Shown piece after piece: positions 17,416 to 47,950 of a stretch of DNA of 64,000 nucleotides. How positions within the stretch are numbered: the stretch's first letter is position 1; each line of letters starts with the position of its first letter. Location of the stretch: assembly GCF_026016445.1 (NCBI RefSeq), contig NZ_CP096147.1, positions 1,090,501 to 1,154,500 of the forward strand, read 5' to 3'. A program made the translations under genes and the position numbers. This stretch comes from Cognatishimia activa (GTDB lineage: Bacteria > Pseudomonadota > Alphaproteobacteria > Rhodobacterales > Rhodobacteraceae). The notes below the pieces were generated by a model that worked only from the letters and a program-made list of their open reading frames with translations, did no database searches and was not told the DNA's origin.

Positions 17416-17491
<76 letters not shown>

Positions 17492-17547
17492 ATAAGCCAT
17501 GTCCGCATCACCCTTTGGTAGTGACCGCCAAGTGAAAGCGGGGGTGA

Positions 17548-17623
<76 letters not shown>

Positions 17624-17956: not shown

Positions 17957-18033
17957 GCGGTTGTAGCTCAGTTGGTTAGAGTACCGGCCTGTCACGCCGG
18001 GGGTCGCGGGTTCGAGCCCCGTCAACCGCGCCA
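17957..18033 (+). tRNA. tRNA-Asp (anticodon GTC)
   Basis: Starts GCGGTTGTAGCTCAG, anticodon loop CTGTCAC, T-arm GTTCGAG, acceptor CAACCGC-G-CCA with CCA encoded. 77 bases. Identical to the next copy. Confidence 0.97.
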
Positions 18034-18082
18034 CTCTGAAGCCTCGCCTAGGGAAGGCACCATAGATCGAGAGGTCAAGCGC

Positions 18083-18159
18083 GCGGTTGTAGCTCAGTTG
18101 GTTAGAGTACCGGCCTGTCACGCCGGGGGTCGCGGGTTCGAGCCCCGTCAACCGCGCCA
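18083..18159 (+). tRNA. tRNA-Asp (anticodon GTC), second copy
   Basis: Identical 77-base copy, 49 bases after the first. It is followed by a strong terminator, so the pair forms one unit. Confidence 0.97.
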
Positions 18160-43259: not shown

Positions 43260-44687
43260 ATGGGAGCATTTTTGAAAAACTTGCGGCTGTCTTACGGGCA
43301 AAAACTGTTTTTGCTTGCCACTTTGCCATTGATCTTGGCAGTGGCCGCGATCTCAATCTTGGTGGCCAATCAATCCCGACAAATGGCGGAACGTGAGATC
43401 AAAGAGCTCGAAGTCCAGTTGATTGAAGCAAAGAAAGACGAGCTGAAGAACTATCTGGCGCTCGCTCGTAACGCCTTCATCAATATCTACGGACGCGCCG
43501 GACCCGATGACGAAGAGGCTCAACTGCTTGTCAGCCAGATCCTCGCATCAATGGTTTACGGCAATGAAGGGTACTTCTTTGTCTATGATTACGAAGGCAA
43601 TAATCTCGTCAGCCCGCGCCAGACCTTTCTGATCAATCGGAATTGGAGTGGTATGAATGACCGTGAAGGCGTGCCTATCACGGATGAGCTCATTCGCATC
43701 GCGCGCTCTGGCGGTGGCTATCACACCTATGATTGGCCAAAACCCAGTACAAATCAGCCCGCTCGCATGATTGCTTATGTCAATGGCTTGCAGGATTGGC
43801 AGTGGGTCATCGGCACCGGTGTCTTCATTGATGATATTCTGGTTTCTGTTGCCGCCGCCCGTGCGCAGGTTGAAGCCCGTGTTCAACGCACCTTCCTTTA
43901 TATCGGCGCGATCACCCTCGCGGCTGTGCTGCTGGTATTTGTCACAGGACTGATAATTAACATTCGTGAACGCCGCCTAGCAGATGCAAAGCTGAAGAAG
44001 CTGACCCAGCGAGTCTTTGATGCCCAAGAAGAAGAGCGCGGGCGCGTTGCCCGGGAACTTCATGATGGGATTTCTCAGATACTGGTCGGTGTGCGTTATG
44101 CGCTGGATTCTGCGCGTCGACGCGTAAAAGTCGGCGACAATCGCGCAGAAGATACACTGGAACGCGGTATGGATCACCTCAATACAGCGATTCACGAAGT
44201 TCGACGTATTTCTCGTGACCTGCGCCCCGGTGTCTTGGATGACCTGGGCTTGGGCCCTGCCCTGCGTGCTTTGACAGAAGAATTCAGCGAACGCACGGGG
44301 ATTGAAACCGAATTCCAGACCGTTGTGTTCCGAAACAGGCTCAACCCAGATGCAAAGTTTTCGCTCTATCGCATTGCTCAAGAAGCTTTAACTAATATTG
44401 AGCGTCACGCAGCAGCCACAAAGATTTCGATTGATCTCAGAGGCCATAAACGCGGCGCCACCATGCGCATCAGCGATAATGGCAAAGGCTTCCCGCAGCC
44501 GCGCAAACGCGGCGAGAGCGTTGGCGGCCTGGGCTTAAGAAATATGCAAGAACGCGTAGAGCAGCTGAATGGTACGCTCCGTGTCTTTTCCAGTAAAAGT
44601 GGCACAGTGGTGGTCGCTGAGGTTCCCCTCAGCCACATCCTGCCCCCAGAACAAGACGGCGATACGAAGATGGAGGCCAAAGCATGA
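43260..44687 (+). CDS. Sensor histidine kinase with Cache domain
   Basis: 475 residues. Membrane helices at about 16-37 and 212-234 frame a periplasmic single Cache (sCache_2-like) domain (SMVYGNEGYFFVYDYEGNNL, GGGYHTYDWPKP, QDWQWVIGTGVFIDDI), which binds small carboxylates in relatives. The cytoplasmic part is HisKA_3-type: EEERGRVARELHDGISQ with phospho-His268, then the ATPase with TNIERHAAATKISI and GLGLRNMQERV. Its last codons overlap the regulator gene by four bases. It is divergent from a TRAP transporter that probably imports the ligand it senses. Confidence 0.92.
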   Translation: MGAFLKNLRLSYGQKLFLLATLPLILAVAAISILVANQSRQMAEREIKELEVQLIEAKKDELKNYLALARNAFINIYGRAGPDDEEAQLLVSQILASMVYGNEGYFFVYDYEGNNLVSPRQTFLINRNWSGMNDREGVPITDELIRIARSGGGYHTYDWPKPSTNQPARMIAYVNGLQDWQWVIGTGVFIDDILVSVAAARAQVEARVQRTFLYIGAITLAAVLLVFVTGLIINIRERRLADAKLKKLTQRVFDAQEEERGRVARELHDGISQILVGVRYALDSARRRVKVGDNRAEDTLERGMDHLNTAIHEVRRISRDLRPGVLDDLGLGPALRALTEEFSERTGIETEFQTVVFRNRLNPDAKFSLYRIAQEALTNIERHAAATKISIDLRGHKRGATMRISDNGKGFPQPRKRGESVGGLGLRNMQERVEQLNGTLRVFSSKSGTVVVAEVPLSHILPPEQDGDTKMEAKA

Positions 44688-45328
44688 CCGATAAGATTTC
44701 TGTGGTGATCGTAGACGATCACCCTATGGTCGCGGAAGGCATTCAATCGATTTTGGAAAGCTACGATGACTTGGATGTGCGCGCGACATTGACCAATGGC
44801 GCTGAAGCTGTGGCCTATCTGAAATCCAATACCATCGACGTGGTGCTGATGGATCTGAACATGCCTGGGATCGGCGGTTTAACTGCCACTGAGATGGTGC
44901 TGGAAAGCAAGCCCGACATGCGCATTCTAATTCTGTCGATGCATGACAGTCCGGAATATATCTCAACCGCACTGAGCCATGGCGCGCGTGGCTATGTCCT
45001 CAAGGATGTGCCCACTGAAGAGATCAAAACCGCCATCGATACCGTGATGCGCGGAGAGCGTTATCTCTGCACAGGAGCAAAAGGATCATTGGAACCTGTT
45101 GAGGACGGCGACCGCGAAACCCTGACCAGTCGAGAGCAGACTGTCCTGCTGCAGCTTGCCCAGGGTAAATCCAACAAAGAAGTCGCCATAGAACTGAACA
45201 TTTCGGTGCGTACAGTCGAGACCCATCGTAAAAATATCAAACGCAAACTGGGCATTAGTTCCACTGCCGGACTGACTCGTTATGCGATCGAACACGGCGT
45301 TTTGCAGCAAACTGGGGTGCAAACCTAA
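44684..45328 (+). CDS. LuxR/NarL-type response regulator
   Basis: 214 residues. The receiver domain has Asp11-Asp12, the phospho-acceptor Asp57 in VVLMDLNMPG and Lys107 in YVLKDV. The C-terminal helix-turn-helix reads LTSREQTVLLQLAQGKSNKEVAIELNISVRTVETH (in parts, about 145-185). It is the partner of the kinase upstream (ATGA overlap), and probably activates the divergent TRAP operon. A FixJ-type box lies in the shared interval. Confidence 0.93.
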   Translation: MTDKISVVIVDDHPMVAEGIQSILESYDDLDVRATLTNGAEAVAYLKSNTIDVVLMDLNMPGIGGLTATEMVLESKPDMRILILSMHDSPEYISTALSHGARGYVLKDVPTEEIKTAIDTVMRGERYLCTGAKGSLEPVEDGDRETLTSREQTVLLQLAQGKSNKEVAIELNISVRTVETHRKNIKRKLGISSTAGLTRYAIEHGVLQQTGVQT

Positions 45329-45433: not shown

Positions 45434-45460
45434 TTGACGCCCCCATTCTGGCCTCATAAT
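45434..45460 (+). promoter_or_regulatory. Predicted ilvBN promoter
   Basis: TTGACG (45434-45439) with CATAAT (45455-45460) 15 bases on, or TAATGT at 45457-45462 with a 17-base spacer. A start near 45468 precedes the leader peptide. Confidence 0.6.
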
Positions 45461-45490
45461 GTCCCCCGCAACGCAAGAAGGACCTGACGC

Positions 45491-45538
45491 ATGTTAGAGC
45501 TAGTCGTCATCGTAGAATTTAGGCGCATGGGCCGGTAA
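45491..45538 (+). CDS. ilvB leader peptide (15 residues)
   Basis: The ORF reads MLELVVIVEFRRMGR, and six of its fifteen residues are Leu, Val or Ile. AAGGA lies eight bases upstream of the ATG. It is the control ORF of the attenuator. When Leu, Val or Ile tRNAs are short, the ribosome stalls in codons 2-8, leaving the downstream GGCGCATGGG free; when translation finishes, the ribosome at the TAA covers it. Confidence 0.9.
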   Translation: MLELVVIVEFRRMGR

Positions 45539-45566
45539 CGGTAATCCAGAATGAACCCCATGCGCC
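45522..45566 (+). promoter_or_regulatory. Antiterminator pairing of the ilvB attenuator
   Basis: GGCGCATGGG (45522-45531, inside the leader ORF) is perfectly complementary over 10 bases to CCCATGCGCC (45557-45566). This structure overlaps the first three bases of the terminator stem, so the two exclude each other. Confidence 0.85.
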
Positions 45567-45590
45567 CTCGAAATTCTCGGGGGCTTTTTT
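45564..45590 (+). terminator. Attenuator terminator before ilvB
   Basis: GCCCTCGA (45564-45571) pairs with TCGGGGGC (45577-45584), five-base loop, followed by six T residues. Confidence 0.92.
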
Positions 45591-45620
45591 GTAGGCATAA
45601 CGTTGCAAGTGGAGAAAAAG

Positions 45621-47375
45621 ATGACACGCAACATGACCGGCGCGAAAATGGTAGTCCAGGCTCTGAAGGATCAGGGTGTGGACACAGTCTTTGGCTATCC
45701 CGGCGGTGCGGTGCTACCGATTTACGACGAGATTTTTCAGCAAAATGACATTCGCCACATTCTGGTGCGTCACGAGCAAGGCGCGGTACACGCAGCCGAG
45801 GGTTATGCGCGTTCCACTGGTAAGGTCGGCGTTGCGCTGGTGACATCCGGTCCAGGCGCAACCAATGCGGTGACCGGTCTGACCGATGCTTTGCTCGACT
45901 CAATCCCAATTGTTGTCATCTCAGGTCAGGTTCCAACCTTCATGATCGGCTCTGACGCTTTCCAGGAAGCGGACACTGTTGGCATCACGCGCCCATGCAC
46001 AAAGCACAACTGGCTCGCGAAGGATACAGAGACGCTTGCTGAAACTCTGCATCAGGCTTTCCATGTTGCGCGTTCTGGCCGTCCGGGTCCGGTTCTGATC
46101 GACATTCCGAAGGACACCCAATTCGCCAGCGCTGAGTACACCGAAGCCCGCGCGGCAAAGGTTGATCACTATCAGCCACAGCTCAAGGGTGACATCACCG
46201 AGATCACAGAACTCGTTGAATTGATGGAGAAAGCTGAACGCCCAGTTTTCTACACTGGCGGCGGCGTTATCAATTCCGGCGATGCGGCAAGCCAATTGCT
46301 GCGTGAGCTTGTCGACACCACAAACTTCCCGATCACATCCACATTGATGGGTCTGGGCTGTTATCCTGCATCTGGCAAAAACTGGCTGGGCATGCTTGGC
46401 ATGCATGGTCTTTACGAAGCCAATATGGCGATGCATGACTGTGATCTGATGATCAATGTTGGCGCGCGCTTTGATGACCGGATCACCGGTCTGATTTCCG
46501 CCTTCTCGCCGAACTCCAAGAAAGCGCATATCGATATCGATCCAAGCTCGATCAACAAGGTGATCCGCGTGGATGTCCCGATTGTTGGTGACGTGGCGCA
46601 TGTTCTGGAGGACCTGTTGAAAGTCTGGAAGGCCCGCGGCCGCAAGACCAACAAAGAAGCGGTGCAAAAGTGGCACGCGCAGATTGCAGAGTGGAAAGCG
46701 GTACGTTGTTTGGACTTTAAACAGGAAGGCAGCACCATCAAGCCGCAATACGCCCTGTCCCGTCTTGAGGCCCTGACCAAAGACATGGACCGCTATGTCA
46801 CCACTGAGGTTGGCCAGCACCAGATGTGGGCTGCTCAATATCTTGGTTTCGAAGATCCAAACCGCTGGATGACCTCCGGTGGTCTGGGCACCATGGGCTA
46901 TGGTTTCCCAGCCTCCATCGGCGTTCAGATGGCGCATCCAGACAGTCTCGTGATCAACGTGGCCGGCGAAGCGTCCTGGTTGATGAACATGCAGGAAATG
47001 GGCACCGCGGTTCAGTTCCGCCTGCCAGTCAAACAGTTCATTCTAAACAACGAACGTCTGGGCATGGTGCGCCAGTGGCAGGAGCTGCTGCATGGCGAAC
47101 GCTATAGCCACTCCTGGTCCGAAGCCCTGCCCGACTTTGTGAAACTGGCCGAAGCCTTTGGCGCCAAAGGAATTATCTGTTCCGATCCTAAAGATCTGGA
47201 TGATGCGATCATGGAAATGGTCAATCACGACGGACCAGTGATTTTCGATTGTCTGGTAGAGAAACATGAAAACTGCTTCCCGATGATCCCGTCAGGTAAG
47301 CCACACAACGAAATGCTTCTGGGCGAAGCCTCCACCCAAGGCGCCATCGAAGCTGGCGGCGCGGTACTGGTGTAA
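45621..47375 (+). CDS. ilvB: Acetolactate synthase large subunit
   Basis: Condenses two pyruvates, or pyruvate with 2-oxobutyrate, in the common pathway to valine, leucine and isoleucine. 584 residues with ThDP, FAD and Mg2+. Catalytic Glu52 is in VRHEQGAVHAAEGYAR; ALVTSGPGATNAVTG and GARFDDRITG follow. The ThDP motif reads VAGEASWLMNMQEM, where many homologues have GDG or GDA. I start at the ATG of MTRNMTGAKM with GGAG upstream, and not an earlier non-ATG codon. It is controlled by the attenuator and followed by ilvN. Confidence 0.97.
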   Translation: MTRNMTGAKMVVQALKDQGVDTVFGYPGGAVLPIYDEIFQQNDIRHILVRHEQGAVHAAEGYARSTGKVGVALVTSGPGATNAVTGLTDALLDSIPIVVISGQVPTFMIGSDAFQEADTVGITRPCTKHNWLAKDTETLAETLHQAFHVARSGRPGPVLIDIPKDTQFASAEYTEARAAKVDHYQPQLKGDITEITELVELMEKAERPVFYTGGGVINSGDAASQLLRELVDTTNFPITSTLMGLGCYPASGKNWLGMLGMHGLYEANMAMHDCDLMINVGARFDDRITGLISAFSPNSKKAHIDIDPSSINKVIRVDVPIVGDVAHVLEDLLKVWKARGRKTNKEAVQKWHAQIAEWKAVRCLDFKQEGSTIKPQYALSRLEALTKDMDRYVTTEVGQHQMWAAQYLGFEDPNRWMTSGGLGTMGYGFPASIGVQMAHPDSLVINVAGEASWLMNMQEMGTAVQFRLPVKQFILNNERLGMVRQWQELLHGERYSHSWSEALPDFVKLAEAFGAKGIICSDPKDLDDAIMEMVNHDGPVIFDCLVEKHENCFPMIPSGKPHNEMLLGEASTQGAIEAGGAVLV

Positions 47376-47386
47376 GGAGAAAGATC

Positions 47387-47950
47387 ATGGCTGCTTTGAA
47401 AATTAAAAAAGGCTCCACGAGTCATTCCGCCTACAACCTGCGCCCGGATTTCTCCAATGTGGAAGAAACCCACACGCTGGCAGTGGTTGTTGATAACGAA
47501 CCGGGTGTTTTGGCGCGCGTTGTTGGCCTCTTCTCTGGCCGCGGCTACAATATCGAAAGCCTGACAGTGGCTGAGGTGGATCACACTGGCCACCAGTCTC
47601 GTATCACCATCGTGACCACCGGGACACCGCAAGTGATCGAGCAGATCAAAGCTCAGCTTGGTCGTATCGTTCCGGTCCATGAAGTTCATGACCTGACCGT
47701 TGAAGGCCCATCTGTTGAGCGTGAACTTGGGCTCTTTAAGGTGGCTGGCGAAGGCGAGAAACGCGTTGAAGCCATGCGTCTTGCTGACATCTTCCGCGCC
47801 AATGTGGTGGATTCTACACTGAACAGCTTTGTGTTTGAAATCACCGGAACGCCGGAAAAAATCGACGCATTCGCCGAATTGATGCGTCCACTCGGCCTGC
47901 AGGAAGTGGCCCGTACAGGTGTTGCAGCCCTGTCTCGTGGTGCACTTTAA
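47387..47950 (+). CDS. ilvN: Acetolactate synthase small (regulatory) subunit
   Basis: 187 residues. Confers valine feedback and raises activity of IlvB. The ACT domain reads HTLAVVVDNEPGVLARVVGLFSGRGYNIESL (in parts), then the C-terminal regulatory domain with SFVFEITGTPEKIDAFAELM. GGAGAAAG precedes the ATG. It starts 12 bases after ilvB and ends before a strong terminator. Confidence 0.96.
   Translation: MAALKIKKGSTSHSAYNLRPDFSNVEETHTLAVVVDNEPGVLARVVGLFSGRGYNIESLTVAEVDHTGHQSRITIVTTGTPQVIEQIKAQLGRIVPVHEVHDLTVEGPSVERELGLFKVAGEGEKRVEAMRLADIFRANVVDSTLNSFVFEITGTPEKIDAFAELMRPLGLQEVARTGVAALSRGAL

Follow-up and report, generated by a model that had tools for sequence, protein, structure and literature searches.

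The window analysed here, a stretch of 64,000 nucleotides from Cognatishimia activa, holds an ORF that we take, from its sequence, to be ilvB, followed by one that by eye is presumably ilvN. This ilvB is 83-91% identical to its best 80 relatives. Upstream of the leader, an ORF at 44684-45328 reads by eye as what we assume to be a response regulator. The features of the ilvB leader are collected in Table 1. A preliminary description of this DNA had claimed a 15-residue leader ORF with six Leu/Val/Ile codons, an antiterminator paired at 10 of 10 positions with its first arm in the last leader codons, and a terminator followed by six T residues and sharing three bases with the antiterminator. All of this anatomy is present: the six codons are Leu, Leu, Val, Val, Ile and Val, the bases common to the proposed antiterminator (helix P1) and the terminator in the window are 45564-45566, and a terminator scan agrees on the terminator. 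The candidate promoter at TTGACG 45434 was absent from the promoter-scan output for the window; its TTGAC lines up, by alignment, in the two copies of the element in genome G192, one before ilvB and one before an MFS gene. The fold of the whole leader was a modest gain over shuffled sequences (z -1.84, with 6 of 200 shuffles equally good). A riboswitch or T-box identity was ruled out, since Rfam gave no match at or above its gathering score at the leader site, and the window's six gathering matches are tRNAs.

Table 1. Features of the ilvB leader and adjoining genes in the window.
Feature	Position	Strand	Basis or remark
Likely ilvB promoter: TTGACG 45434-45439 with CATAAT 45455-45460 or TAATGT 45457-45462	45434-45462	+	
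Shine-Dalgarno-like AGAAGGA of leader ORF	45476-45482	+	Sequence reading
Leader ORF, 15 codons, MLELVVIVEFRRMGR, stop TAA 45536-45538	45491-45538	+	ATG at 45491
Leu-Val-Val-Ile-Val run in leader ORF	45500-45514	+	Extra Leu at 45494
Helix P1, 5' arm GGCGCATGGG, proposed antiterminator, within final leader codons	45522-45531	+	10/10 complementary to 3' arm
Small hairpin CCG-GTAA-CGG, leader stop codon in loop	45532-45541	+	Both-sided changes; variants in other loci
Helix P1, 3' arm CCCATGCGCC	45557-45566	+	10/10 complementary to 5' arm
Intrinsic terminator 45564-45584, then T6 45585-45590	45564-45590	+	Sequence and terminator scan; isolated dG -14.4 kcal/mol
ilvB, acetolactate synthase large subunit, the regulated gene if the element is an attenuator	45621-47375	+	ORF list
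Probable ilvN, acetolactate synthase small subunit	47387-47950	+	ORF list

The element recurs throughout the order. An exact pattern of the P1 arms occurred in 201 of 292 genomes, spread over 87 of 112 genera, and the reversed-pattern control gave none among the matches listed; a covariance model of the element, R2, run with the stricter filters that were used above 40 genomes, matched 180 of 196 genomes (83 of 87 genera). All 10 genomes of genus g7, in the window's family, lacked an R2 match under these filters, and they make up 10 of the 16 misses. The sole other genome of the window's genus in the set, G138, contains the element by R2 and lacks the exact arms; the exact-pattern counts are therefore lower bounds. 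When 30 pattern loci were fetched, the window included, ilvB lay downstream in 28, and the other two had neither ilvB nor an MFS gene downstream and failed the terminator pattern. A chance inverted repeat was ruled out by this conservation, by pattern, by R2 and in gene context. In the window's own genome, a model search gave the ilvB copy plus a single weak match (E 0.7). A homologue search with ilvB in named genomes, from which the best 80 loci were kept, gave exact arms in 70 and a shorter core in 6; among the remaining four, L055 and L078 are variants, L058 is cut off and L059 is without the element. The ilvB loci with the element, together with the window, form a set of 79 that includes many close relatives, and alignment A1 comprises 69 of these, ten near duplicates having been excluded.

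The leader ORF bears a coding signature across this set. The frame ending in RMGR is open and has a start in 78 of 79 loci, compared with 2 of 79 for each of the two other frames, and a purine-rich site precedes the start in 78 of 79 by a permissive pattern; one alternative frame is open for at least 12 codons in 68 of 79 loci, but without a start. The peptide is 15 residues long in 67 of 78 leaders, usually of the form MxxLVVIVGxxRMGR, and ends with TAA in 65 and TGA in 13. The preliminary description had named conservation of the Leu/Val/Ile run as support, and it was borne out: ilvB leaders contain a mean of 5.2 such codons, and 65 of 78 have a run of at least five, a length reached in 0.5% of random 14-codon draws from the window's codon usage. 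Rare codons are favoured within the run's residues, CTA making up 57 of 104 Leu codons in leaders versus 69 of 1559 in the window's ORFs, and GTA 109 of 221 Val codons versus 111 of 1217, in a comparison of related, non-independent leaders with the ORFs of the window and not with each genome's own genes; ATC showed no bias in leaders relative to the window's ORFs. From this conservation we infer that the leader ORF is probably a translated frame. The window also contains tandem duplicate tRNA-Val(UAC) genes (17416-17623, minus strand), adjoining tandem duplicate tRNA-Asp(GUC) genes (17957-18159, plus strand), and tRNA-Val(UAC) would decode GTA, the Val codon enriched in leaders. Two ilvB leaders, L027 and L152, have an in-frame TAG just ahead of P1 and would end beside its 5' arm, not within the stop hairpin.

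The alignment tells different things about the three helices. Of the compensatory changes that the preliminary description had asked for in both stems, those in the terminator were found, if thinly: 5 cells, spread over 4 of the 5 pairs counted, differ on both sides, and 99.7% of the stem's cells are paired. Those in the antiterminator were not found, P1 in A1 being paired in 99.0% of cells with 5 of 9 pairs invariant and none of the 9 changed on both sides. Covariation as proof of P1 thus failed in the ilvB set. The hairpin around the stop codon changed on both sides in 2 of 3 pairs (3 cells), so that all 8 both-sided cells in A1 fall in the terminator and the stop-codon hairpin. All five pair measures in A1 exceeded 500 of 500 shuffles, which ignore relatedness, and sliding the partners by one column gave a covariation score of 0.067 versus the observed 0.064.

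How far P1 and the terminator exclude each other was evaluated by folding. In isolation, the window's P1 is predicted at -21.6 kcal/mol and its terminator at -14.4 kcal/mol, and in every one of the 79 loci the isolated terminator stem takes in two bases of the nine-base arm CCCATGCGC. When a ribosome was placed in the model at each Leu/Val/Ile codon in turn, with an assumed downstream footprint of 14 nt, the minimum-energy fold of the window contained both helices at every stall position tried, with P1 shortened. Partition estimates over the 79 loci, made for nine starts of the free RNA from 0 to 24 nt before P1, gave a mean probability of 0.90-0.98 for the terminator core and 0.70-0.83 for its two bottom pairs when P1 was free to form, and the core dropped under 0.5 in no more than 6 of 79 loci, one of them the window, and only at the earliest stall positions tried. 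The claim that the two structures exclude each other was therefore overstated: P1 has two bases in common with the terminator, and the core is predicted to survive for the most part next to P1 at equilibrium, which leaves strict exclusion unsupported and, on these models, not a trait of the family. The window is an exception with low core probability (0.97, 0.69, 0.29 and 0.00 with 9, 12, 15 and 18 free nt), because AGAATTT at 45514-45520 can pair, in the window fold, with AAATTCT at 45571-45577 in the terminator and lengthen P1; under the assumed 14-nt footprint this stretch is free only if the ribosome stalls at or before the first Leu codon. When the arm was held wholly in P1, the terminator averaged -9.8 kcal/mol, less stable than the -16.3 kcal/mol it has otherwise, and what was left of its stem stopped 1-2 nt before the T-run; P1 plausibly destabilises the foot of the terminator in this modelled way. 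An upstream protector helix, which in four-segment attenuators of the trp/ilv type favours termination when there is no translation, was probed in the window alone: removal of the 3' arm gave unpaired probabilities of 0.54-0.94 for six of the nine 5'-arm bases and 0.05-0.14 for the other three.

ATGCG or ATG-rich letters often stand just past the T-run, in ilvB loci such as L007, L024 and L034, and by eye, uncounted, the letters past the T-run repeat part of a P1 arm. In read-through RNA, such letters could form pairs with the 5' arm.

On the observed anatomy, conservation, leader coding pattern, rare-codon bias and gene association, we consider it highly probable that the element is a ribosome-mediated transcription attenuator of ilvB(N), and it is from these that we infer its stalling, read-through and signal. 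A ribosome would translate the leader while RNA polymerase makes it. If the tRNAs for Val, Leu and Ile are charged, the ribosome would reach the stop codon at 45536 and mask the 5' arm of P1; the terminator region would then stay open, and transcription would end at the full terminator (about -14 kcal/mol). With uncharged tRNAs, above all the readers of GUA and CUA, the ribosome would stall within 45494-45514, P1 would fold ahead of it and take the terminator's foot pairs beside the U-tract, and with the terminator so weakened ilvB would be transcribed. Multivalent control by Leu, Val and Ile is a plausible prediction from the leader codons. The classical form of attenuation proposed for this site thus stood in part: the codon run, the frame and their place before the terminator are kept and the codons are rare ones, but exclusion is weak, and the coexistence of P1 and terminator at predicted equilibrium counts against an attenuator.

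The same element was also found before a second kind of gene. A model built from ilvB leaders alone, R1, gave matches in 15 of the 385 genomes searched across the class. Ten lay outside the window's family, and near these there was no ilvB; the gene downstream was an MFS transporter. R2 matched 16 of 385 genomes, including 11 outside the family, in 10 families, with an MFS gene downstream in 11 of 11. Three of the MFS proteins (L119, L120 and L128) were tested, and they pass the cutoff of NCBIfam TIGR00710 (Bcr/CflA efflux). Among 36 elements examined, the gene directly downstream was ilvB in 14 and an MFS gene in 22, in a comparison that queried these two proteins only and used a set picked in part for its second copies and low scores. 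Two copies were present in 8 of 196 genomes of the order, and in 8 of 8 one copy preceded ilvB and the other an MFS gene; GCGCATGGGCCGGTAA is common to both copies of genome G192 and the window. The MFS relatives L166 (genome G001) and L169 (genome G091) share 59% and 54% identity with the G192 copy. A loose P1 pattern found nothing in the 260 bases upstream of these two or of L174, a 44% relative in the window's own genome, and the same pattern flagged L177, a second paralogue in G192, which lacks a T-run.

The 22 MFS leaders are rich in valine (71 of 326 codons), and their 18 Leu codons include no CTA. A Leu/Val/Ile run of at least five occurs in 3 of 22, and four leaders have no run longer than one. 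What the MFS switch senses may be valine, or slowed translation generally. In 21 MFS-type elements, P1 was paired in 84% of cells, with both-sided change in 3 of 9 pairs, in an alignment that was fitted to the structure and for which the controls are weak: 109 of 500 shuffles reached the observed share of paired cells, and sliding the partners by two columns gave an equal number of changed pairs and more changed cells. The 3' arm in this set mostly stays CCATGCGC, and the 5' arm drifts, partly into mismatches. Pairing alone does not explain the near-invariance of P1.

These MFS leaders bear on whether the element responds to translation more broadly. It would then be a general translation-stress sensor, in which anything that slows ribosomes across the Val-rich stretch, such as an inhibitor, switches on the gene behind it, and which would have arisen before an efflux-type gene and later been borrowed by ilvB. 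The MFS association in 10 other families (11 genomes), with the ilvB association seen in model searches only in the window's family, points in this direction, as do MFS leaders that share the layout with no CTA and few long runs, and the three proteins that passed the efflux cutoff. We nevertheless regard such a sensor as unlikely, the strict Leu/Val/Ile run and rare codons of most ilvB leaders being needless for it.

A relative of the leader is already filed in Rfam as a small RNA. RF02502 (Atu_C8), a Rhizobiales sRNA, aligned at full length over the window leader with 23.3 bits, below its gathering score of 50, so that the leader is not a member by score and, judging by the alignment, is likely a relative. 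Read in frame, the RF02502 consensus gives MIILVVGPRMGRAV, which resembles the window leader, although the inner hairpins differ. RF02502 scored above cutoff in 1 of 289 genomes (L128, 98.8 bits) and in none of 14 control genomes, and it was rejected as a probe for the class on that count. The L128 element has the leader MQVSVVVGRRMGKAA, the same P1 arms and a Bcr/CflA-type MFS gene downstream; unlike in the window, its terminator lies about 8 nt past P1 and shares no base with it. R2 gave L128 20.0 bits (E 0.0016, filters off) and missed it in the whole-genome search, and because of this weak score it is P1, the peptide and the gene downstream that speak for kinship with Atu_C8. Of five sub-threshold places for RF02502, L130 is an ilvB element and L129 a different ilvB leader. 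L129 (genome G478) has another Leu/Ile/Val leader, beginning MSLLIVPCAPNEG, and another GC-rich inverted repeat before ilvB; this ilvB leader of another family is, unlike the window's, without P1 arms.

This filing is one reason to weigh a trans-acting product. The element could be mainly an sRNA or small-peptide gene, whose terminated transcript of about 120 nt and peptide act in trans, with cis control secondary and P1 kept for its sequence; the almost invariant P1 arms of the ilvB set, and the kept 3' and drifting 5' arm of the MFS set, would suit it. A trans role has also been described for the S. meliloti trp attenuator RNA, rnTrpL, with the peptide reported as functional, in the available portions of PMC10117765 and PMC7143759. 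We think this quite improbable for the present element, given that 36 of 36 elements lie directly before ilvB or an MFS gene, that ilvB follows at nearly all the pattern loci fetched (28 of 30), and that the codon run of ilvB leaders fits the pathway. That the element is a plain conserved terminator with an unrelated small ORF and no regulation is scarcely credible: although equilibrium predictions have the core forming in most loci whether P1 is there or not, a strong constitutive terminator between promoter and ilvB would presumably do harm, and 78 of 79 loci retain the frame and codon run at a fixed position relative to P1 and terminator.

We return to attenuation before ilvB as the preferred reading, and on balance it is probable that one homologous module serves in the Alphaproteobacteria as a shared input for acetolactate synthase genes and Bcr/CflA-type transporter genes. 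Its parts would be a valine-rich peptide with an RMGR-like end, a P1 conserved in sequence, and a stop codon in a hairpin loop. If so, the transporter may serve branched-chain physiology, for example by moving a branched-chain compound or a pathway inhibitor; alternatively, a drug-stress sensor would have been recruited to a biosynthetic operon. The Rfam sRNA Atu_C8 would then be a transporter attenuator, which offers a cis-regulatory reading of an RNA now filed as a small RNA. A branched-chain codon switch before an efflux-type gene would also be a testable clue to the role of such transporters.

On its own, the ilvB attenuator is ordinary, though widespread in the order, and belongs to a known kind, ribosome-mediated attenuation. 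What is new here, as far as sequence comparison tells, is the position of the element before a Bcr/CflA-type MFS gene, a link for which the open-licence literature searched, judged by title, gave no report. The first description of an alphaproteobacterial 'ilvB leader peptide' is reportedly that of Vitreschak et al. 2004. Enterobacterial ilv, leu and trp attenuators combine a regulatory codon run, a leader peptide and an intrinsic terminator, as here; unlike in those systems, P1 overlaps the terminator by 2-3 bases only, and this small overlap raises the question of how little base sharing a natural attenuator needs. The trp leader of B. subtilis provides a precedent for small overlaps. In the accessible part of PMC3913778, the B. 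subtilis trp structures are termed mutually exclusive, with no overlap length given.

Closest to the window's arrangement, in the portions of the sources at hand, are Caulobacter ilvBN, described as attenuated via tandem Ile and Val codons in the leader (PMC4117421), and the alphaproteobacterial ilvB leader peptide, called previously described in a 2005 survey (PMC1273637); like the window, these have acetolactate synthase genes preceded by a leader that contains Ile/Val codons and by a rho-independent terminator. For an S. meliloti ilvIH cis element, PMC2573895 (partial text) gives the same source as for the ilvB leader peptide, and no mention of ilv was found in the available part of PMC2881028. 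The Salmonella leu leader also uses CUA codons, according to the section of PMC1183508 available. In the Rhodobacterales, the cysS uORF motif uORFC-8-2 is a candidate for ribosome-mediated attenuation and, like the ilvB leader, has conserved regulatory codons and belongs to the same order; unlike the ilvB leader, its codons are for cysteine and it stands before cysS (PMC8632094, partial text). In that same partial text no mention of a Rhodobacterales ilvB element was found, its ilvB motif being from Leptospira. For the transporter genes, a counterpart likened by description alone is mef(E)/mel, in which an efflux gene is under drug-inducible attenuation (PMC4335068, available in part). Attenuation of an efflux gene would be alike in both, in other hosts; unlike mef(E)/mel, the leaders described here carry Val-rich runs, and the leader is common to a biosynthetic gene.
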